Virus record (IMG/VR): IMGVR_UViG_3300021375_000086
Span: 1 to 36,052 of that record
DNA from: a virus
Strand: one strand, 5' to 3'
DNA length: 36,052 nucleotides
Shown here: one piece after another, positions 1 to 36,052 of the stretch
Position numbering within the stretch: the stretch's first letter is position 1
Layout of the letters: each line of letters opens with the position of its first letter
Notes under the pieces: model-generated
The model's database searches: none
The model's input: only the letters and a program-made list of their open reading frames with translations
What the model was told of the DNA's origin: nothing
Translations under genes and position numbers: made by a program

Positions 1-153
1 CGCTGCACCTGCACCTACACCCGCCGCACCTGCGCCACCGGCTGCACCTGCACCCGCCGCACCTGCACCAACGCCGGCACCTACGCCAGCAGGAGGTGCC
101 GCAGTGCCAGCCGTCGTACCAGCGATGATCGCAGCTTCAAGCAATCCACCCAT
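1..153 (-). CDS. Ala/Gly-rich protein, N-terminal part (gene spans the window ends)
   Basis: This is the first 51 codons of a gene that runs off base 1 on the minus strand and resumes in frame at base 36052; the whole product would be 184 residues. It starts with ATG at 153-151, sharing one base with the TAA of the upstream GNAT-like gene (TAATG). The product opens with a short hydrophobic stretch and then becomes almost pure Gly/Ala with a few Val and Pro. It lies between the terminase side and the portal, where podoviruses often carry small virion or membrane-associated proteins. The composition suggests a flexible or membrane-interacting virion protein, but I recognise no family. The codon repeats make this stretch prone to assembly error. 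Confidence 0.75.
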   Translation of the reverse strand, partial: MGGLLEAAIIAGTTAGTAAPPAGVGAGVGAGAAGAGAAGGAGAAGVGAGAA

Positions 154-7569: not shown

Positions 7570-8015
7570 GCGAACCAACCTACGGCGAAATCATCAAAGC
7601 AGCTCGCGAGGCGAAAGGCTGGAGCAATCAGAAGTTTGCCTCCGAAGCCGGCCTTAGCGATTCCACGACACACGCTGCAGAGAACGGCAAAACCAATCTG
7701 ACCAGAACGACACGCATCAAGATCGAGGGTGCGCTTGATCTGTCGATTACGCCGTGCACTTTTGATGAGAAAACTTTCTTCAGGACACAGAGTGCCGCGA
7801 CCAATACTCCTGACGGACCAGCCCTGTGGAGTTTGGAGTGGTCGCAAGAATTGAAGCGGTGCCGCTTGAACAGAAATTGGACGCCAACTGAACTAGCGCG
7901 CAAAGCCGACATCGGAGTTAGCCAGCTTTACGCGGTTGAGTCTGGGCAACGAATCCCACGCTTGGACGTAGCGATGGCGCTGAGCGATGCGCTGGGGATG
8001 GCTATCGAATGGTGA
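7566..8015 (+). CDS. tandem two-domain XRE-family HTH regulator
   Basis: A 149-residue protein made of two Xre-type helix-turn-helix domains, at about residues 5-60 and 90-147. The first has Gly-Glu-Ile-Ile-Lys-Ala-Ala-Arg-Glu-Ala-Lys-Gly-Trp, then Lys-Phe-Ala-Ser-Glu-Ala-Gly-Leu. The second has Leu-Lys-Arg-Cys-Arg-Leu-Asn-Arg-Asn-Trp, then Glu-Leu-Ala-Arg-Lys-Ala-Asp-Ile and Ala-Val-Glu-Ser-Gly. The C-terminus Ser-Asp-Ala-Leu-Gly-Met-Ala-Ile-Glu-Trp is identical to that of the next gene, encoded by a perfect DNA repeat. This suggests growth by domain duplication or recombination at the 3' end. It probably regulates the early region. Confidence 0.85.
   Translation: MSEPTYGEIIKAAREAKGWSNQKFASEAGLSDSTTHAAENGKTNLTRTTRIKIEGALDLSITPCTFDEKTFFRTQSAATNTPDGPALWSLEWSQELKRCRLNRNWTPTELARKADIGVSQLYAVESGQRIPRLDVAMALSDALGMAIEW
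7983..8013 (+). repeat. 31-bp direct repeat, copy 1
   Basis: This is the first of three perfect copies of a 31-bp sequence starting AGCGATGCGCTGGGG and ending TCGAATGGT. It encodes the last residues (Ser-Asp-Ala-Leu-Gly-Met-Ala-Ile-Glu-Trp) of the two-domain HTH protein and runs into its stop. Together with copy 3 the identity extends to 34 bases. Confidence 0.95.
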
Positions 8016-8233
8016 TGGCAACGGACGGAGATGACCCGAAAGGGTGGGTGCGCGAGTGGGCGCAGGACATGAAGCGGGAGCGTGTCAAACAAGGTATGAC
8101 GATGGCTGTACTCGCTCAACTGTCTGGGGTTCCGAAAGGCTCGATATCCCGTTACGAGACTCTGGAGAGAGAGCCTGTGCTCAGCAATGCAATGGCAATC
8201 AGCGATGCGCTGGGGATGGCTATCGAATGGTAG
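8015..8233 (+). CDS. XRE-family HTH regulator
   Basis: A 72-residue product with one HTH domain: Met-Lys-Arg-Glu-Arg-Val-Lys-Gln-Gly-Met-Thr, then Val-Leu-Ala-Gln-Leu-Ser-Gly-Val-Pro and Gly-Ser-Ile-Ser-Arg-Tyr-Glu. ATG 8015 overlaps the TGA of the previous gene (TGATG); an ATG at 8009 in the same frame would add two residues. The last 10 residues match the C-terminus of the two-domain neighbour exactly. It may be a competitor or partner of that protein. It ends before a GGGGGAG site serving the next gene. Confidence 0.8.
   Translation: MATDGDDPKGWVREWAQDMKRERVKQGMTMAVLAQLSGVPKGSISRYETLEREPVLSNAMAISDALGMAIEW
8201..8231 (+). repeat. 31-bp direct repeat, copy 2
   Basis: The second perfect copy, at the 3' end of the single-domain HTH gene in the same reading frame as copy 1. 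The bases upstream of copies 1 and 2 are only partly similar, so the exact conservation is limited to the gene tail. Confidence 0.95.
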
Positions 8234-8265: not shown

Positions 8266-8961
8266 ATGAACTGCGAATTTAAGGAAAGTACGAGAAAGGT
8301 AAAACACGCGGAAAAGCTCGCACGGGATACAAACCGTGAGATTCAAGACGCATTAAGGAAATTCGGAGAATCAAAGAGGCTTACCCGAATCCGCAAGCGT
8401 TCGTGCGGCGACTGCACGGAATGCTGTACTTCGATGGCGGTAAATGAGATCGACAAGCCATCAGGGGAGTCCTGCGCGCACGCGCGGTGCGATGGGTGTG
8501 CCATCTACCCAAACCGACCGTATTCATGCGCCGCTTGGTCTTGCCTTTGGTTGTCAGGATACGGACCCGACTCTGCAAAGCCATCCGCATCCGGGTTTAT
8601 GGCTTACTTCAGCTATCAGACAGACAATGTGATTGTCGCTCACATTGTATCTGCCACGCCGTATGAATCAGAACCCGCGTTAGACATGATCGAAGAGATC
8701 GACATTGGACTACAGAAAAGATACGGCCAGAACACCAGAGTCTTCGTTATGGCGGAAGACAACAGCGCCGAGAAATATCCGTTCACTAGCGACCCTAGAT
8801 TGGTGGTGAGCATGATACGGAACCACGCTATCGAGGGGCGCGCGGACCAACTCATCGGCCAAACCAAGAGCAGTATCTGCCTGGCATCAAACATCAGCTA
8901 TAAGGAAGCGCGAAGGGGCGGTATATCGCAGCACTCACCTAGTCCAGCAGGAACTCGTTAG
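8266..8961 (+). CDS. YkgJ-like cysteine-cluster protein
   Basis: A 231-residue protein with GGGGGAG before ATG 8266. Residues 47-93 carry the YkgJ/CxxCxxCC-family pattern: Cys47-x2-Cys50-x2-Cys53-Cys54, then Cys70, Cys75, Cys78, and Tyr-Pro-Asn-Arg-Pro-Tyr-Ser-Cys88, Cys93. Family members are predicted to bind a metal or iron-sulphur cluster, and their function is poorly defined. The N-terminal 40 residues are a charged helix. The C-terminal domain (about 100-215) is alpha/beta with no familiar motif. The last few codons read through a fragment resembling the 3' end of the SprT gene on the other strand, so its C-terminus appears to have been reshaped by recombination. Confidence 0.8.
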   Translation: MNCEFKESTRKVKHAEKLARDTNREIQDALRKFGESKRLTRIRKRSCGDCTECCTSMAVNEIDKPSGESCAHARCDGCAIYPNRPYSCAAWSCLWLSGYGPDSAKPSASGFMAYFSYQTDNVIVAHIVSATPYESEPALDMIEEIDIGLQKRYGQNTRVFVMAEDNSAEKYPFTSDPRLVVSMIRNHAIEGRADQLIGQTKSSICLASNISYKEARRGGISQHSPSPAGTR

Positions 8962-8966
8962 CTTGT
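8939..8966. repeat. fragment of a SprT-gene 3' end (diverged copy)
   Basis: 28 bases starting CTAGTCCAGC match 24 of 28 bases of 10762-10789, the 3' end of the SprT-like gene, in the same orientation. Read on the minus strand it gives Gln-Ala-Asn-Glu-Phe-Leu-Leu-Asp-stop against Gln-Ala-Ser-Glu-Phe-Pro-Leu-Asp-stop. All four differences are transitions, as in a diverged homologue. It overlaps the end of the YkgJ-like gene. Confidence 0.7.
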
Positions 8967-8972
8967 GTTTGG

Positions 8973-9003
8973 AGCGATGCGCTGGGGATGGCTATCGAAT
9001 GGT
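8973..9003 (+). repeat. 31-bp direct repeat, copy 3 (orphan HTH-gene tail)
   Basis: The third perfect copy (34 bases, 8972-9005, shared with copy 1 including TGA) sits in the 68-base gap before the methyltransferase and is not part of an HTH gene. It is best read as the remnant 3' end of another HTH gene, or as a recombination junction. The GAGGGAGG site of the methyltransferase starts only seven bases beyond its stop. Confidence 0.9.
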
Positions 9004-12242: not shown

Positions 12243-12498
12243 TCAGCGCCCCCTTCAGTGCTTGGGGGGCAACGTCAAAGCTGGGGATATCTTCGCAGCA
12301 GAGCTCGGAGAATGCCTTCCATCCGATGTTGTGCCCGTCATCCCTAAGCAGTAGCCAATTGCGGACATACGCCTCAAACGTCGTCCGCTCTTTCTTCGGT
12401 GCGGTTTTTTCCCACACCTGAAGAGCGTTCGTCCTGCTCGCGTACTGACCGCGCTTAGCTAGCCTTTGCTTAATGTCTTCGTCAACGTCTCGAGTCAT
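12220..12498 (-). CDS. hypothetical protein after the spanins
   Basis: A 92-residue protein, ATG 12498, overlapping the Rz1-like gene by 17 bases and the phosphoesterase gene by 23 bases. It is basic and helical in the first half (Lys-Gln-Arg-Leu-Ala-Lys-Arg-Gly-Gln-Tyr). A Trp-Leu-Leu-Leu-Arg-Asp-Asp-Gly segment follows, then a short Cys-Cys-containing turn. No family recognised; DNA binding is possible from the charge. Confidence 0.65.
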   Translation of the reverse strand: MTRDVDEDIKQRLAKRGQYASRTNALQVWEKTAPKKERTTFEAYVRNWLLLRDDGHNIGWKAFSELCCEDIPSFDVAPQALKGALSERIKRL

Positions 12499-12709
12499 TA
12501 GATTCTTCCGGCCAGCAGAACGAAACTAAGCGCCCAATCCAACGCACTGCTGGTCGGTCAGGATTGGCGAAAACAACTGCTTCGTAGTCGTCAACTTCGA
12601 CCACGCTTGGTTGGGGGCAAAGACGCCTATGCGTCATCGGAGTCGAGCACCCGACGCAAAGCAGCAACGCTAGTAGGGCCATCGAGAGGAGCACGCGCCA
12701 TCTCAGCAT
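12482..12709 (-). CDS. Rz1: Rz1-like outer-membrane spanin lipoprotein
   Basis: A 75-residue product with a lipoprotein signal: Met-Leu-Arg-Trp-Arg, a Leu/Ala-rich core, then a lipobox ending Cys-Val-Gly-Cys, with Cys21 as the lipidated residue. The mature part is short and contains Pro-Gln-Pro. Its 5' end lies within the Rz-like gene in another frame (83-base overlap), the classic Rz/Rz1 arrangement. After endolysin action it would pair with the inner-membrane spanin to fuse the inner and outer membranes, which places the host among Gram-negative bacteria. Confidence 0.85.
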   Translation of the reverse strand: MLRWRVLLSMALLALLLCVGCSTPMTHRRLCPQPSVVEVDDYEAVVFANPDRPAVRWIGRLVSFCWPEESNDSRR

Positions 12710-12857
12710 TTTCGTTCTCCAGGCTTTTCACTTGCAATCTCAAATAGACCAACTCATTTTGCAGCTCGCCCACCAAAACAGCCAAGCGGCTGCGCTGCCA
12801 TCCGAACCAAACCGCAAGCAAAATTGCAGAAGACGTTACGGATAGCGCGAGCCACAT
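12627..12857 (-). CDS. Rz: Rz-like inner-membrane spanin
   Basis: A 76-residue protein, ATG 12857, sharing TGATG with the preceding small membrane gene. Residues 2-19 form one N-terminal transmembrane segment. Residues 25-55 are a coiled coil with heptads (Leu-Gln-Asn-Glu-Leu-Val-Tyr-Leu-Arg-Leu-Gln-Val), as in inner-membrane spanin subunits. It is shorter than lambda Rz. The overlap with the lipoprotein gene downstream makes the call secure. Confidence 0.85.
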   Translation of the reverse strand: MWLALSVTSSAILLAVWFGWQRSRLAVLVGELQNELVYLRLQVKSLENENAEMARAPLDGPTSVAALRRVLDSDDA

Positions 12858-13036
12858 CAGTTCACGGTTTCGTCGTTAGCGGCGTGACCCCAATTCATCG
12901 CAAGCCAGTTAAGGACCGTTGAGACGATTGCCGGCATTTTCGAGTCAGGCACCACAGCAGAAACCAAGCCTGCGATGGCAACCACGAGTGACATGATTTC
13001 AATTCCGTAGGGAATTTGCGAGACAAGAACTTCCAT
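12857..13036 (-). CDS. small membrane protein, holin candidate
   Basis: A 59-residue product. ATG 13036 is chosen because AGGAG lies seven bases upstream; the frame opens eight codons earlier without such a site. Residues 14-30 are clearly hydrophobic (Ile-Met-Ser-Leu-Val-Val-Ala-Ile-Ala-Gly-Leu-Val), and a weaker hydrophobic stretch follows near 37-50. It lies between the endolysin and Rz genes, the usual holin position. Hole-forming activity cannot be read from sequence. Confidence 0.6.
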   Translation of the reverse strand: MEVLVSQIPYGIEIMSLVVAIAGLVSAVVPDSKMPAIVSTVLNWLAMNWGHAANDETVN

Positions 13037-13046
13037 TTTGCTTCTC

Positions 13047-13412
13047 CTATCGCGGATCAATTTCCGCGTGAATGTGCATGTTTAACCCTTCGCCGTGAAC
13101 CACGAATTGGTACGAGCCAAGAGGATCGTCGAGCCGCTGTCGAACGCGACCAACCCACTCCCACATCGCGAGCTCTCGAGCATCGTCATCTGCCGCTTCT
13201 ACGTTTCTGGAACGGATGTCAAACGCGCTGCACCAAGTATGGGCATCGTCGGTGTGTCGGGCGGATCGGTGCCCTTCGGTAATTACCATGCGCCCATCGG
13301 TCGTATCTGGGGCAGTGACCAAAAGTGCCGTCAGCAAAGCGACCATTTCAGGACGGAAGTTTGATGGCTTGAACGAAGCGTTTTCTTTGAATGCGATTGC
13401 TTCGGTAATCAT
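13047..13412 (-). CDS. M15-family peptidase endolysin
   Basis: A 121-residue single-domain peptidase of the VanY/M15 type, which cleaves peptide crosslinks in peptidoglycan. Zinc-ligand pattern: His58-x6-Asp65 in Thr-Trp-Cys-Ser-Ala-Phe-Asp, and a C-terminal His-Ile-His (113-115) with Glu117 and Asp119. The Thr-Glu-Gly-His-Arg at 45-49 matches the family strand before the first ligand. There is no signal peptide, so release needs the holin. It is followed by the holin candidate and the spanins. Confidence 0.85.
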   Translation of the reverse strand: MITEAIAFKENASFKPSNFRPEMVALLTALLVTAPDTTDGRMVITEGHRSARHTDDAHTWCSAFDIRSRNVEAADDDARELAMWEWVGRVRQRLDDPLGSYQFVVHGEGLNMHIHAEIDPR

Positions 13413-13439: not shown

Positions 13440-13739
13440 CTAAACGACATCTCGACCTGCTGCGTTATTTACAAGCACCTTAATGCCGTCCTTGATCTCG
13501 TCGATGTCTCCGCTTAGGTTTTCAATCGTTGTACCAGTTTTTGCAGACGACTCAGCTAGAGCCTTGATCGCTTCCGAGTGCCGAGCAAGCCGAGCCTCCG
13601 AAGCCTTGTGGCGTTGCTCGAACTCGGCCTCTCGCTGATTCTGCTTGTAGAAAATACGCGCGAGTGCGCCACTTCCCGTGACGCCCAGAGCTGCCATGAG
13701 TTCAGTCATCCATGAGGTTGTTCCGGGATCGGTGGGCAT
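13440..13739 (-). CDS. small membrane/coiled-coil protein of the lysis region
   Basis: A 99-residue protein with AGGATAA before ATG 13739. Residues 10-28 are moderately hydrophobic (Leu-Met-Ala-Ala-Leu-Gly-Val-Thr-Gly-Ser-Gly-Ala-Leu-Ala). The rest is a charged coiled coil (Lys-Ala-Ser-Glu-Ala-Arg-Leu) ending in an Ile/Leu-rich amphipathic helix. This plan resembles XhlA-type proteins that accompany holins, but the membrane segment is weak. It is the first gene of the lysis cassette. Confidence 0.6.
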   Translation of the reverse strand: MPTDPGTTSWMTELMAALGVTGSGALARIFYKQNQREAEFEQRHKASEARLARHSEAIKALAESSAKTGTTIENLSGDIDEIKDGIKVLVNNAAGRDVV

Positions 13740-13754
13740 CTTTTATCCTTTGAC

Positions 13755-15812
13755 CTAGCGAGCGCCGAAGTTTCCGCCTGGGCCACCAAGGGTCAAAACT
13801 GACTTAGCTGTGCCGGTCACAAACGCGGGAATGACTATTGGGAGAATCAAGCTGTATGTGTCGTCGTATCCACCGTCACATTCTTTGCCTGATAGGCAGA
13901 TACCTTGATTGAGCAATGCTCCGAATGAATCTCCGTCAACGCCAGCGCCGCCTGAATTGTAAGTTGTCGAGCAAGAGTCGAAGAAGTTGGTATAAACGGA
14001 AGCGTTCCCGGCCAAAGCATCGGCGCAAGTATCGTACCCCGCGCCTAGATTAAACTCTTCGTACAAAGCGTTTCCGCCTTCGTGGTCGTCGTAAATCGTT
14101 TTGCTTATATCAAAGTCAACTTGCTCGTGGTTGTTATTTATGTAGAGGTAGTACCTAGATGCGTTACCTACCGTTTCGATAGGCTCGTCAAACAAAGACC
14201 CGCGTATTTTGAAATTCACCTGGCTTGTAGCAGGGGTCCCGCTAATCCAAATAGCCTGCCCGATGTTTGCAAACGTCGTTTGATACAAACCGATATTCGC
14301 AACTGCGTTTGCAGAAGTAAATTGCAGGTCAAACCCTTTTGTATTTTCGGTAGAATCCGAGTCTGCATCAATCATTCCAATGACTGACCTAACAAAGTTT
14401 GCTGTAAGTTGATTGTCGCTATTAGCGTCAGACGTAACTTCAATAAGGCTAGCTGGCTTTGAACCAATTTCTCCTGAGTTCATTACTACAGAACCCATAA
14501 ACAGAGATTGCGTGGATGCGTGGAGGCGAAGAACATTCCCATTTTGAGTTAGGTAATTGGTGTCGGCCATGTCCCAAGACGAAAACATATCAATAAAAGA
14601 TGGAGAGGCGTAGGGTGAAGCTGTATCAGAAATTATAGCTAGAGGATCGTTAGCTACATCTGCGTCACCATCGTCTACGTTTGTGTATTTACCTCTAATT
14701 GAAATAGCCTTTGTGTCACCTTTCAAAACAATGCAATGACCGCTGTTGTCGTCTGTGTCAGCGCCCCCTGTGTCTGTATCATCTGAGCGATCAGCGGAAC
14801 AATCGGCACCGATAATAATAAACTTTCCCCCCAAAACTACTGAGTTGTAGTGATCCCATCCATGACAATTATCTGTCTGAATGTTTTCTACAACGATCCA
14901 ACCCTCGTCGCCAGTGCTGCTATTCGCGCCAAATATGTTGGTGGTCGCGTTAGTTGTTTCATGGACTGCACAGGAGATGCGGGCCTTTTTAATTCCGGTA
15001 GGGTCCGTTGATGATATCCGGATGCCTATTTTATCCGGGTCAGTATTCGCATTGAGTTCGTCAAACGCACCATCGAGAGTAAGCGCACCCGTGCGAGCGC
15101 CGCTGCCGGTGCAAGATGTCCACGGGGTATTGGCTCCAGAACAGTCAGCCGCCGCTCCCCACACGTCTTCGGAGTCCAACAAGATCCACACCCGCCCCGT
15201 TTGAACAGCGATGTCCCGCGCCTTGTCGAGCGAAGCGACAGGGAACGCCTTAGTGCCGGGGTAGGCGTCATCGCCTAAAGGGAGGTCACCTTCGTCCGCA
15301 TTGCTTACATAGATTTTCGCGAGGTCACTAGAAGCCGCAAGCAACTGCGTTAGGCCCTGCAACGTCGCGTAGTCAGACTCGCCAAGGACCGCGCCGCCGC
15401 CGCCCCCAGAAAGTTGCTGAGTCGAATGACTCCGAATCGTTAGATACGAAACATTCCCGGCAGTTTCAGCCGCCGTCACATCGACGATTAACCACATACG
15501 ACCTGTAGTGATTTCAATGTTTTGGTTTGTTGCAGACAGAGTGGCGACCGTTGTACACGTTCCCGCCGCATACGACTTCGTTTCGCAAGCGTAAACAGTG
15601 GCAGTGAACGCGCTACCTCGCGTAAACGCCAACCGCTGCACTCCGTTTGCAGGAGCGCGCAAGAAATCCGCAGTCGTTACGGTTTCGTAAATCTCCGACC
15701 GATAGCCACTTTGACCAGACATTTGCGCCATGTCGTAATAGACCTGAGCCGATGCGGCAGACGCGCCCACCATGAGCAACACCGCCAGTCCAATACTTCT
15801 CAAAAACTTCAT
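13755..15812 (-). CDS. exported beta-helix-like protein
   Basis: A 685-residue protein with AAGGAGG eight bases before ATG 15812. It begins with a clean Sec signal: Met-Lys-Phe-Leu-Arg, a Leu/Val/Ala core and Ala-Ser-Ala cleavage region at about residue 22. The mature part is Asp/Asn/Ser/Thr-rich with short beta-strands, Cys pairs, and a Phe-Pro-Val-Ala-Ser-Leu-Asp-Lys-Ala-Arg-Asp-Ile-Ala segment typical of the entry to right-handed beta-helix domains (about residue 190). Cys is frequent, suggesting disulphides outside the cytoplasm. A signal peptide is unusual for a tail-associated gene. It may be an exported depolymerase-like or surface protein rather than a virion spike. Confidence 0.7.
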   Translation of the reverse strand: MKFLRSIGLAVLLMVGASAASAQVYYDMAQMSGQSGYRSEIYETVTTADFLRAPANGVQRLAFTRGSAFTATVYACETKSYAAGTCTTVATLSATNQNIEITTGRMWLIVDVTAAETAGNVSYLTIRSHSTQQLSGGGGGAVLGESDYATLQGLTQLLAASSDLAKIYVSNADEGDLPLGDDAYPGTKAFPVASLDKARDIAVQTGRVWILLDSEDVWGAAADCSGANTPWTSCTGSGARTGALTLDGAFDELNANTDPDKIGIRISSTDPTGIKKARISCAVHETTNATTNIFGANSSTGDEGWIVVENIQTDNCHGWDHYNSVVLGGKFIIIGADCSADRSDDTDTGGADTDDNSGHCIVLKGDTKAISIRGKYTNVDDGDADVANDPLAIISDTASPYASPSFIDMFSSWDMADTNYLTQNGNVLRLHASTQSLFMGSVVMNSGEIGSKPASLIEVTSDANSDNQLTANFVRSVIGMIDADSDSTENTKGFDLQFTSANAVANIGLYQTTFANIGQAIWISGTPATSQVNFKIRGSLFDEPIETVGNASRYYLYINNNHEQVDFDISKTIYDDHEGGNALYEEFNLGAGYDTCADALAGNASVYTNFFDSCSTTYNSGGAGVDGDSFGALLNQGICLSGKECDGGYDDTYSLILPIVIPAFVTGTAKSVLTLGGPGGNFGAR

Positions 15813-15830
15813 TCCGTCTACCTCCTTCAG

Positions 15831-15995
15831 CTAGTTCGCTGATCGTGAAACTTCTGATGCAGAAGATTTTTCTTGATCCTCGGCTAGTTTTTTTTCTAGC
15901 TGCTCAATTTGAAACTTAAGATATTCGTTTTCAAATTTAAGAGAACCGAGTTCGTACTTTAGTTTCTCTTCAAAAGTGTCGATCAAAAATGGCAT
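15831..15995 (-). CDS. 54-residue coiled-coil protein
   Basis: Starts at ATG 15995, overlapping the tail-fibre TAA (TAATG), and ends at TAG just before the AAGGAGG of the exported protein. The product is a clear heptad coiled coil (Leu-Lys-Phe-Glu-Asn-Glu-Tyr-Leu-Lys-Phe-Gln-Ile-Glu-Gln-Leu) with a Ser/Ala/Glu tail. Its position after the fibre suggests a fibre chaperone or trimerisation aid, by analogy to small genes after fibre genes; there is no family match to confirm this. Confidence 0.65.
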   Translation of the reverse strand: MPFLIDTFEEKLKYELGSLKFENEYLKFQIEQLEKKLAEDQEKSSASEVSRSAN

Positions 15996-17815
15996 TAGTT
16001 CGGCACCCTCAAAACCTTAAAGCCTCCACCTCCTGAATCAGCAGCGCCTTCAGTGACCTGCTTTAAGCTACTATTGATTCTCAGGAATACTGGGTTTGCT
16101 GAACTGGCACCTGACAACTCCATTGCCGTGGTTTCTGTGCCAGCAGCCACCACGTTTAGCGAGAGCTTCCCCGTATGGGCTCCGGCAGTGTTGACCTGAA
16201 CAGTGTTAATCATGGCCGAGTAGTCAACTTTTGCTGCGGCAACATTGTTGCCGCTAAAAATTATGCGACTACTAGGGGCACCGGGAGTAGCTATCGTGGA
16301 ACCAAAGCGCACAACAGACGCGATGGCTGTACGGGTTTCGATAGCGGCTGTAGTGTAAGTACCCGTAAGATTAACGCCGACATTCCCGCCATCGACCGCC
16401 AAGCCTGTACCGACACTACCTAAACTGCCTTCCGTGACGTTGATGGCTACGTCGAGCTTCATGGGTTCGGCTGACAAAGTACCACCCTCGGAGGGTCGAA
16501 CATTGATGCCATGCGCGATGCTAGAGGCCCCATCGATAGAGTTGTCATAGCCTCGCCCAATTACGTCAAGGATAGTGCGTAGCCCGCTGTCGTCCGGGCC
16601 AGCAGCCGTTAGTCCAATCTCTGTGCCGATAAGACCACCCCGGCTTACCGAAGAAGCTCGTGTCGTTTGGTCGCGTGCTACAAAGTTGGCACCGAAGATC
16701 CCACACGTCGAAGGCTCGTGCTTGAACGAAATACCTTGAACGGACGTGAAGTTGGGAACGGACCCGCCAATAGTAGTGCGTTGGCAGTTAATACTACCGA
16801 TAATGGCGTTTTCGTAGTTGTCTATTGCGCCGGTAATTAAAACTTCAGAATTTAACGCCGAGTTGTTTGCAGAACCTCCTGCGGTTCCGCCGGTATGGCT
16901 TGCAGTGCGCTGAACTCTAACCGTTGGCCTATCCGAAGTTAAACCAGTAGTCGCGTTGTCGTGAAAACCGTGCTTACCAACAAACCACGGGCGCGTACTA
17001 TCCCCGTTGTACCGCGCATTAGTTCTGTTACCCAACGGTTGAGCTGTTGAATAAGTTGTGTTGCTGTGCTCTTGCCAGACTACTGTACGAGTACCAAAAG
17101 CCAACGTGCTCATATTGCCAACGTAAGCACCTGTCGGAACAAAGATTACAGCTATGCGACCATCGGTAGTCGAGTCAATAGCAGCCTGAAAAGCCGCTCT
17201 GTCATCAGTCGATCCGTTACCTAAAGCGCCAAAGTCCTTGACGTTTACAGCCTCGGCAAATCTCTCCTGAAGAGTACGCGCCGTGGTCGTGCCCGTGGCC
17301 GTCACTGTCGTGCCACTCGCCGTCGCCGGGTCGGTCATAATTACGTTGCCCGAACTGTCAAACGTCAGCACCTTAGACGCTCTTTGAGTAAGGCTTGGCA
17401 CGGTCAAAGATGGGGTTGAAGAATCACCGTCGCTGATATGTATCGAACGGTCTACGAGATCTCGCGTTCGCTTGTTAAGGTTGAGCTGCTTATCAAGCGC
17501 GTCTTCGTGAGACTGTGCAGGGAATGCGCCGCCAGTGCTGTAGTCGGTGAGCTGCGTGAGCTCAGGGTCTAAGATGATAGAAACCGTTTCGCCTAAAACC
17601 GGGGCAGTCACGAAAACTACAGCGCCACCTACAGACGAACCGACACCCGATACGGTGTAGTCAGTCGTAATCGTTTTGACGGAATCAACACCCGCCGCAC
17701 TTTGAACGACGACCTTCAGACTCGCTTGGTCGAGAATGCGAAAACTGTAAGCGAACGAAGTCGTAGACCCGTTACCAGAGTAGGATAGTCGCTTTAACTG
17801 GCTTGAAATAGTCAT
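15995..17815 (-). CDS. tail fibre / spike protein with T7 gp17-type N-terminus
   Basis: A 606-residue protein. Residues 1-140 match the virion-attachment domain seen in T7-like fibres: Tyr-Ser-Gly-Asn-Gly-Ser-Thr-Thr-Ser-Phe-Ala-Tyr-Ser-Phe, Thr-Asp-Tyr-Thr-Val-Ser-Gly-Val, and Ala-Leu-Asp-Lys-Gln-Leu-Asn-Leu. After a linker, Val-Lys-Asp-Phe-Gly-Ala-Leu-Gly-Asn-Gly-Ser-Thr-Asp-Asp (about 192-205) begins a pectate-lyase-like beta-helix, typical of spikes that bind or cut surface polysaccharide. The C-terminus is Ser/Thr/Gly-rich and ends in a Phe-Lys-Val-Leu-Arg-Val-Pro-Asn cap. It sets host range and is likely trimeric. Confidence 0.9.
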   Translation of the reverse strand: MTISSQLKRLSYSGNGSTTSFAYSFRILDQASLKVVVQSAAGVDSVKTITTDYTVSGVGSSVGGAVVFVTAPVLGETVSIILDPELTQLTDYSTGGAFPAQSHEDALDKQLNLNKRTRDLVDRSIHISDGDSSTPSLTVPSLTQRASKVLTFDSSGNVIMTDPATASGTTVTATGTTTARTLQERFAEAVNVKDFGALGNGSTDDRAAFQAAIDSTTDGRIAVIFVPTGAYVGNMSTLAFGTRTVVWQEHSNTTYSTAQPLGNRTNARYNGDSTRPWFVGKHGFHDNATTGLTSDRPTVRVQRTASHTGGTAGGSANNSALNSEVLITGAIDNYENAIIGSINCQRTTIGGSVPNFTSVQGISFKHEPSTCGIFGANFVARDQTTRASSVSRGGLIGTEIGLTAAGPDDSGLRTILDVIGRGYDNSIDGASSIAHGINVRPSEGGTLSAEPMKLDVAINVTEGSLGSVGTGLAVDGGNVGVNLTGTYTTAAIETRTAIASVVRFGSTIATPGAPSSRIIFSGNNVAAAKVDYSAMINTVQVNTAGAHTGKLSLNVVAAGTETTAMELSGASSANPVFLRINSSLKQVTEGAADSGGGGFKVLRVPN

Positions 17816-35654: not shown

Positions 35655-36052
35655 TATGCACCGCCCAGACTTCGCTTACCCACTCCGCCAGATTTTGAAC
35701 TGCCACCCGAAAGCATATTTGATGCAATTCCTCGTGGCGCTCGTTGTCGTTCTCTACGACGAGCTGCCGCTGCGTCAGCGTTTGTCTCTCCGGGCATCTG
35801 GGGAGACTTTACGCTTGGAGCCAGCCCTGCCGACAATCCACTCGATAACCCTGCTCCTATTACTGCTGGCGCTACTGCTTTTGCTAGACCCGCTAAACCT
35901 ATAGCTTTTGCTGGCGCAACTGAACTTGTAATCGCGCCCAGCGAACCAGGCGCAACAAGCGAAGTAGGGATTGCGCCTGCGCCACCGATTGCGCCTGCGC
36001 CACCGATTGCGCCTGCGCCACCGGCTGCACCTGCACCCGCCGCACCTGCGCC
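35651..36052 (-). CDS. Ala/Gly-rich protein, C-terminal part (continuation across the window ends)
   Basis: These are the remaining 133 codons plus TGA of the gene that starts at 153. Reading leftward from 36052 gives Gly/Ala repeats, then three copies of a Gly-Gly-Ala-Gly-Ala-Ile unit encoded by perfect 18-bp DNA repeats. A hydrophobic Ala/Val/Leu/Ile segment follows, then a basic Arg-rich patch and a Ser/Gly-rich tail. The stop overlaps the portal start as TTGA, so translation of the portal is probably coupled to this gene. In-frame continuity over the break is the main reason to treat the window as a circular map. Function unknown; a small virion component is plausible. Confidence 0.75.
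   Translation of the reverse strand, partial: GAGAAGAGAAGGAGAIGGAGAIGGAGAIPTSLVAPGSLGAITSSVAPAKAIGLAGLAKAVAPAVIGAGLSSGLSAGLAPSVKSPQMPGETNADAAAARRRERQRAPRGIASNMLSGGSSKSGGVGKRSLGGAY
35969..36022. repeat. three perfect 18-bp tandem repeats
   Basis: Three units of GATTGCGCCTGCGCCACC follow each other without gaps and encode Gly-Gly-Ala-Gly-Ala-Ile on the minus strand. A related, more degenerate Gly/Ala codon repeat continues to the end of the window and over bases 1-90. A 38-bp segment is shared between 36012-36049 and 29-66. Confidence 0.9.

Follow-up and report, generated by a model that had tools for sequence, protein, structure and literature searches.

The 36,052 bases analysed here (a single IMG/VR record, hereafter the window) carry the gene set of a T7-like podovirus, with a terminase, a connector, tail tubular and internal virion proteins, and a T7-type fibre/spike. 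The head-tail connector (Pfam Head-tail_con, 376 bits) was closest to that of Manatee Spring podovirus (40%), followed at greater distance by those of Stenotrophomonas, Vibrio and Pelagibacter phages, and a 2,699-aa protein was closest to one of Cobetia phage Carin1, with BPP-1-like phages matching too. Reading along the minus strand, the spike gene is succeeded by a gene for a 685-aa protein with a predicted export leader and then by XhlA-like, endolysin, holin and Rz/Rz1 genes, the last four assignments having been made mostly by eye (Table 1). The location beside the fibre gene given in the original prediction was thus correct, the fibre/spike gene ending at position 15995 with a 54-aa ORF in between. 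The XhlA-like protein was 93-100% identical in three other contigs (L003, L022 and L023). Among direct repeats of at least 24 nt, none resembling those of a diversity-generating retroelement was found near the spike, and a promoter scan performed no better than scans of shuffled sequence.

Table 1. Features of the spike-to-lysis region of the window (all on the minus strand)
Feature	Position	Strand	Basis or remark
Tail fibre/spike, T7-type N-terminus and pectate-lyase-type start, without leader	15995..17815	-	PHROGs, Pfam
54-aa coiled-coil ORF between spike and leader-bearing gene	15831..15995	-	Overlaps spike stop codon
448-bp island (Shine-Dalgarno, leader, N-terminal domain)	15398..15844	-	89% identical to L023
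79-bp island (Shine-Dalgarno and leader)	15751..15829	-	95% identical to L003; flanks without similarity
Shine-Dalgarno sequence AAGGAGG	15821..15827	-	8 bases 5' of start codon; within island common to L003 and L023
685-aa Sec-leader protein	13755..15812	-	ATG at 15812
Predicted Sec signal peptide, residues 1-22, cleavage between ASA and Q	15747..15812	-	Rule-based scorer and leader comparison
N-terminal domain, residues 24-136, probable beta-sandwich, Gly-rich linker at end	15405..15743	-	
C-terminal body, residues 137-685, beta-rich, without detectable relatives	13758..15404	-	
XhlA-like coiled-coil protein	13440..13739	-	Pfam XhlA 22.3 bits, below cut-off of 34.7
Probable M15-type peptidase endolysin	13047..13412	-	Motif by eye; without Pfam support
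Probable holin	12857..13060	-	One hydrophobic segment; PHROGs matches are function-unknown families
Probable Rz (inner-membrane spanin)	12627..12857	-	By eye
Probable Rz1 lipoprotein (lipobox), overlapping Rz	12482..12709	-	By eye

The leader of the 685-aa ORF reads MKFLRSIGLAVLLMVGASAASA and is followed by QVYY, the predicted mature N-terminus being QVYYDMAQ. It combines an n-region with K/R, an h-region of A, L, V and G, and a cleavage site between ASA and Q, and contains neither a twin arginine nor a lipobox cysteine. This arrangement of n-, h- and c-regions with an AXA site is that of Sec-exported proteins, as called by a rule-based heuristic scorer written for this analysis (not SignalP). 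Applied to the 32 window ORFs of at least 150 aa, the scorer assigned a Sec leader to the 685-aa ORF alone, and when 20,000 N-termini were generated at random from the composition of the mature protein, 4 scored equally high. The clean Sec signal claimed in the original prediction was thereby confirmed, and it is preceded by a strong Shine-Dalgarno sequence.

Only two other IMG/VR contigs, L003 and L023, shared the leader, and across the three the sole changes were V/A, A/S and A/G. L003 represents a close relative of the window phage (portal 100% identical, backbone DNA 94-97% identical), and the 79-bp island was as conserved as that backbone. Between the spike N-terminus and the XhlA gene of L003 only these 79 bp, from the Shine-Dalgarno sequence to the cleavage site, were kept, and the spike C-terminus and the payload behind the leader had both been exchanged. 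In L003 the leader is followed by a 297-aa Cys-rich protein and then by a second leader-bearing gene of 332 aa. An apparent homology of the 297-aa protein to the N-terminus of the window protein (E = 5e-7) was rejected, as the leader alone carried it and no match remained after leader removal; the L003 tail in the alignments was therefore spurious. In L022, the same XhlA-like gene is preceded by a different 430-aa Cys-containing frame whose 5' end is cut off. This frame (L022:3-1295) and the second L003 gene (L003:9011-10009), both Cys-rich and directly before the XhlA gene, look SGNH-hydrolase-like by eye, their motifs suggesting a putative SGNH/GDSL identity; neither had a match in Pfam or NCBIfam, and the second L003 gene gave only weak VP3 matches in the PDB (phmmer).

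L023 comes from an otherwise dissimilar phage (portal 45% identical at the amino acid level). In a comparison covering 9-11.6 kb, the only stretches of DNA similar to the window were the 448-bp island and the XhlA-like gene (305 bp, 87%), and the N-terminal domains of the two leader-bearing proteins were 91% identical in amino acid sequence. Beyond this domain and its Gly linker, the L023 protein continues as a pectate-lyase-type beta-helix (PF12708, 38.7 bits against a cut-off of 27) that matched AlgE6 in the PDB (E = 8e-9) and the tail spike family PHROG 2234 (E = 4e-12); the payload also has a domain present in the tail nozzle protein of the window. Apart from the contig it belongs to, a viral scan with this beta-helix gave only a single short match of 40%, and no sequence similarity was detectable between it and the window body. 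The window and L023 proteins are thus laid out like a spike, with an exchanged body behind a constant front, but here the front is an export signal.

The original prediction described the window protein as beta-rich and beta-helix-like. A first AlphaFold (AF2) model, the input alignment of which held the spurious L003 tail, reached a mean pLDDT of 37.8 and was therefore unusable for naming a fold, while the strands assigned to it by DSSP were consistent with a beta-rich protein. A beta-helix is a candidate fold at most for the window body: PF12708 had no match in the window protein (Pfam), being found only in the dissimilar body of the L023 relative. Searches of PHROGs, Pfam, PDB and NCBIfam revealed neither a glycosidase nor a lyase motif in this body, and no spike N-terminal domain of known type was recognised by Pfam or PHROGs, the only match being to a head-tail joining protein (E = 0.076). 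The model of the N-terminal domain (8 strands) was likewise weak (pLDDT 55); it matched YomS (Z 8.1) and XepA (Z 8.0), whose type is a pentameric C2-like beta-sandwich, at values tied with many unrelated beta-sandwiches and at background level, as was the best VIA Z of 8.4, and a BFVD search with it gave nothing at E <=0.001. Relatives of the window protein were absent from 50,697 phage records (tblastn, E 0.01; E 1 for the N-terminal part alone) and a single-protein pattern search found none in IMG/VR or the genome collection. With the N-terminal domain only, the L023 contig was the sole viral match and there was none in genomes.

Leaders on proteins of this kind were as unusual as had been predicted: out of 80 loci with a common fibre motif, 74 were 5'-complete and one of these had a leader. 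Likewise, one of 10 annotated phage records had a leader at the post-fibre locus, leaving out a membrane-bound glucosyltransferase of Enterobacter phage BUCT554, in which this locus holds a glucosyltransferase cluster; pelagiphages carry leaderless accessory fibre-type proteins there. In L028 (MW202898.1, 35766-38486), a 906-aa Sec-leader protein directly follows the fibre gene and combines a tail-fibre motif with a BclA/C1q-like part (below the Pfam cut-off), its annotation being only 'caprin-2 domain protein'. In a 72.9-kb virus contig, a head-tail adaptor gene is closely preceded by three consecutive Sec-leader genes (L020:8511-12765). The first encodes a fibre-motif protein (12 Cys), the second a protein whose beta-helix starter scored slightly under the Pfam cut-off (28 Cys), and the third a ConA-like protein (12 Cys). 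Two further cases were a virus contig in which a fibre-motif protein of 334 aa has a clear Sec leader (L078:2929-3933) and a 149-aa leader-bearing gene directly after a T7-type fibre (L010). The heuristic leader scan produced 10 matches in 1.15 Mb of loci (13 repeat or same-contig loci left out, the remainder partly overlapping), including a spanin-like lipoprotein (L029) and a glucosyltransferase (L121), and it missed the first two L020 genes, which are without a standard Shine-Dalgarno sequence by its rule. No report of Sec-leader spike- or fibre-like proteins as a class was found in those portions of the literature that were searched.

All 12 cysteines of the window protein lie in its mature part (12 in 662 residues, 1.8%), compared with 17 in the 6,328 residues of ten virion-type genes of the same genome (0.27%; Fisher p = 5e-6). 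In a hand-picked, post hoc and non-independent set, ten leader-bearing fibre/spike-region proteins had a median Cys content of 2.3%, compared with 0.34% for 30 proteins without a leader, which comprised fibres, spikes, accessory proteins and other virion proteins (Mann-Whitney p = 0.002). The count was even in all seven leader-bearing proteins with at least 10 Cys and odd in all three leaderless proteins with at least nine. Exceptions occurred on both sides, with 5, 1 and 0 Cys in the leader-bearing proteins of L028, L078 and L010, respectively, 13 in the leaderless L003 spike, and up to 3% in leaderless neighbours of the L020 genes.

The nearest documented precedent is XepA of the Bacillus subtilis prophage PBSX, an exported non-virion late protein with beta-sandwich domains. 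XepA is reported to be made as the phage develops, to pass beyond the membrane and to be missing from mature particles, and xepA is encoded between the tail genes and xhlA-xhlB-xlyA (PMC6834076). The window gene similarly lies between tail and xhlA-type lysis genes, with the reservation that its XhlA match is below the Pfam cut-off. However, XepA is a 279-residue PDB chain listed as non-classically secreted, whereas the window protein has 685 aa, a Sec leader and 12 Cys and belongs to a phage with Rz/Rz1-like genes; a phmmer search of PDB sequences, including 6i56 and 6i5o, gave no match of the window protein to XepA or YomS at E up to 10. Podoviral tail spikes and T7-type fibres (for example, Dpo31 of Cobetia phage Carin1) share with it a conserved N-terminal domain, a linker, a swapped beta-rich body and the place beside the spike gene, but differ in lacking the Sec leader and Cys richness and in the type of N-terminal domain, and a T7-type spike is encoded by the window phage in any case. 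Lambda Lom is likewise encoded in the tail region and exported, as predicted for the window protein, but is an outer-membrane beta-barrel, a fold for which the window protein gave no evidence. Among secreted beta-helix enzymes of the pectate-lyase/alginate-epimerase type (PF12708; AlgE4/AlgE6), likeness was limited to the leader-bearing L023 payload, which scored above the Pfam cut-off, the window body giving no match.

Export from the cytoplasm, as suggested originally, is well supported, although indirectly, because the leader was retained over a swapped mature part, Cys counts are even and high, and the exported XepA is encoded at the same genomic place. We propose, with about an even chance of being right, that the window protein is a late-exported, disulfide-stabilised, spike-like free payload acting on glycans of the host surface or matrix. 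Expressed late, it would enter the periplasm through the host Sec pathway, lose its leader between ASA and Q, fold there with disulfides, and be released by lysis as a free, spike-like adhesin or enzyme that could clear debris or matrix, or keep progeny away from it. We infer each of these elements (export, cleavage, disulfides, late expression, absence from the virion and a glycan target). A free glycan-directed activity at release would be the likeliest role, because one payload is a carbohydrate-type beta-helix and because L003 differs in its payload as well as in the C-terminus of its spike. The polysaccharide-active part of the original prediction is accordingly plausible from the L023 payload and from the two genes that look SGNH-like by eye, although the window body itself yielded no lyase or glycosidase motif.

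Leaderless accessory fibre-type genes at the same locus in relatives make a virion origin of the protein likely and a virion role possible. It might be an accessory spike that is exported for disulfide formation and joins particles when lysis mixes the compartments, as its conserved N-terminal domain, Gly linker and swapped body, the match of the L023 payload to a tail-spike family and its domain shared with the tail nozzle protein, and the leaders on fibre-motif proteins of L028, L078 and L020 would allow. We consider such a periplasm-matured virion part unlikely: tail assembly is cytoplasmic in known podoviruses, the N-terminal domain is unlike known spike anchor domains (PHROGs, Pfam), a T7-type spike is already present, and no precedent was found in the parts of the literature searched. 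If the leader were instead non-functional, by chance or as a vestige, the protein could be an ordinary virion part assembled in the cytoplasm, in keeping with the leaderless genes at this locus and with a leader that is a prediction only. This was judged the least probable explanation, given that three contigs keep the leader in front of different payloads and that all its substitutions are compatible with a signal, that Cys is enriched, and that so few random N-termini score equally high.

A lysis helper of the XepA type, acting on the envelope together with the XhlA-like protein, would account for the PBSX-like gene order and for the fact that the otherwise dissimilar L023 has the XhlA-like gene as well as the leader cassette in common with the window. 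The Z-scores to YomS and XepA from the low-confidence domain model point the same way but do not exceed background, the XhlA match is below cut-off, and the swapping of payloads for unrelated proteins would be unexpected with a fixed lysis function, so that we hold this to be quite unlikely. More improbable still is a protein that binds a host receptor or glycan and thereby masks it or excludes superinfection. The concerted difference in spike C-terminus and payload between the window and L003 would be expected if both tracked one receptor, and Lom is an exported outer-membrane protein from the lambda tail region (PMC12309495), but no outer-membrane anchor was recognised in the window protein, and its position adjoining the lysis genes suggests expression too late for exclusion. 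Nothing was found that favours specifically the decoy or superinfection-blocking role put forward in the original prediction.

The usual assumption for tailed phages is that their receptor-binding and depolymerase proteins acquire their fold in the cytoplasm and are carried on the virion. More tentatively than for the free payload itself, and with considerable doubt, we suggest that Sec-leader spike- and fibre-like proteins, many of which are rich in Cys and have an even number of them, represent an overlooked second adhesin route, in which they would fold with disulfides in the periplasm and then be set free or loaded onto particles at lysis; in the clade of the window phage, the Shine-Dalgarno sequence and leader would form a fixed cassette over exchanged payloads. 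If true, a fixed leader cassette over Cys-rich spike-like payloads would mean that some phages deploy exported tools before or at lysis. The combination of a Sec leader, an even Cys count and a post-fibre position would give a simple search rule, and such a cassette would allow the possibility of periplasmic maturation of virion parts to be tested directly.

Three minor observations concern other parts of these contigs. In L023, a SET-domain gene (Pfam SET, 40 bits; L023:8312-8650) directly follows the XhlA-like gene. The two ends of the window (1-102 and 35973-36052) belong to the same GC-rich tract of short repeats, matching at 95% over 44 nt; the contig may therefore represent a whole genome, circular or permuted, with the break at a repeat. 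A 31-43-nt repeat is present in three window copies (7971-8013, 8189-8231 and 8961-9003), and since small HTH-like proteins of L003 share an identical ...ALGMAIEW end that is encoded by copies of this repeat, duplicated regulators are suggested.
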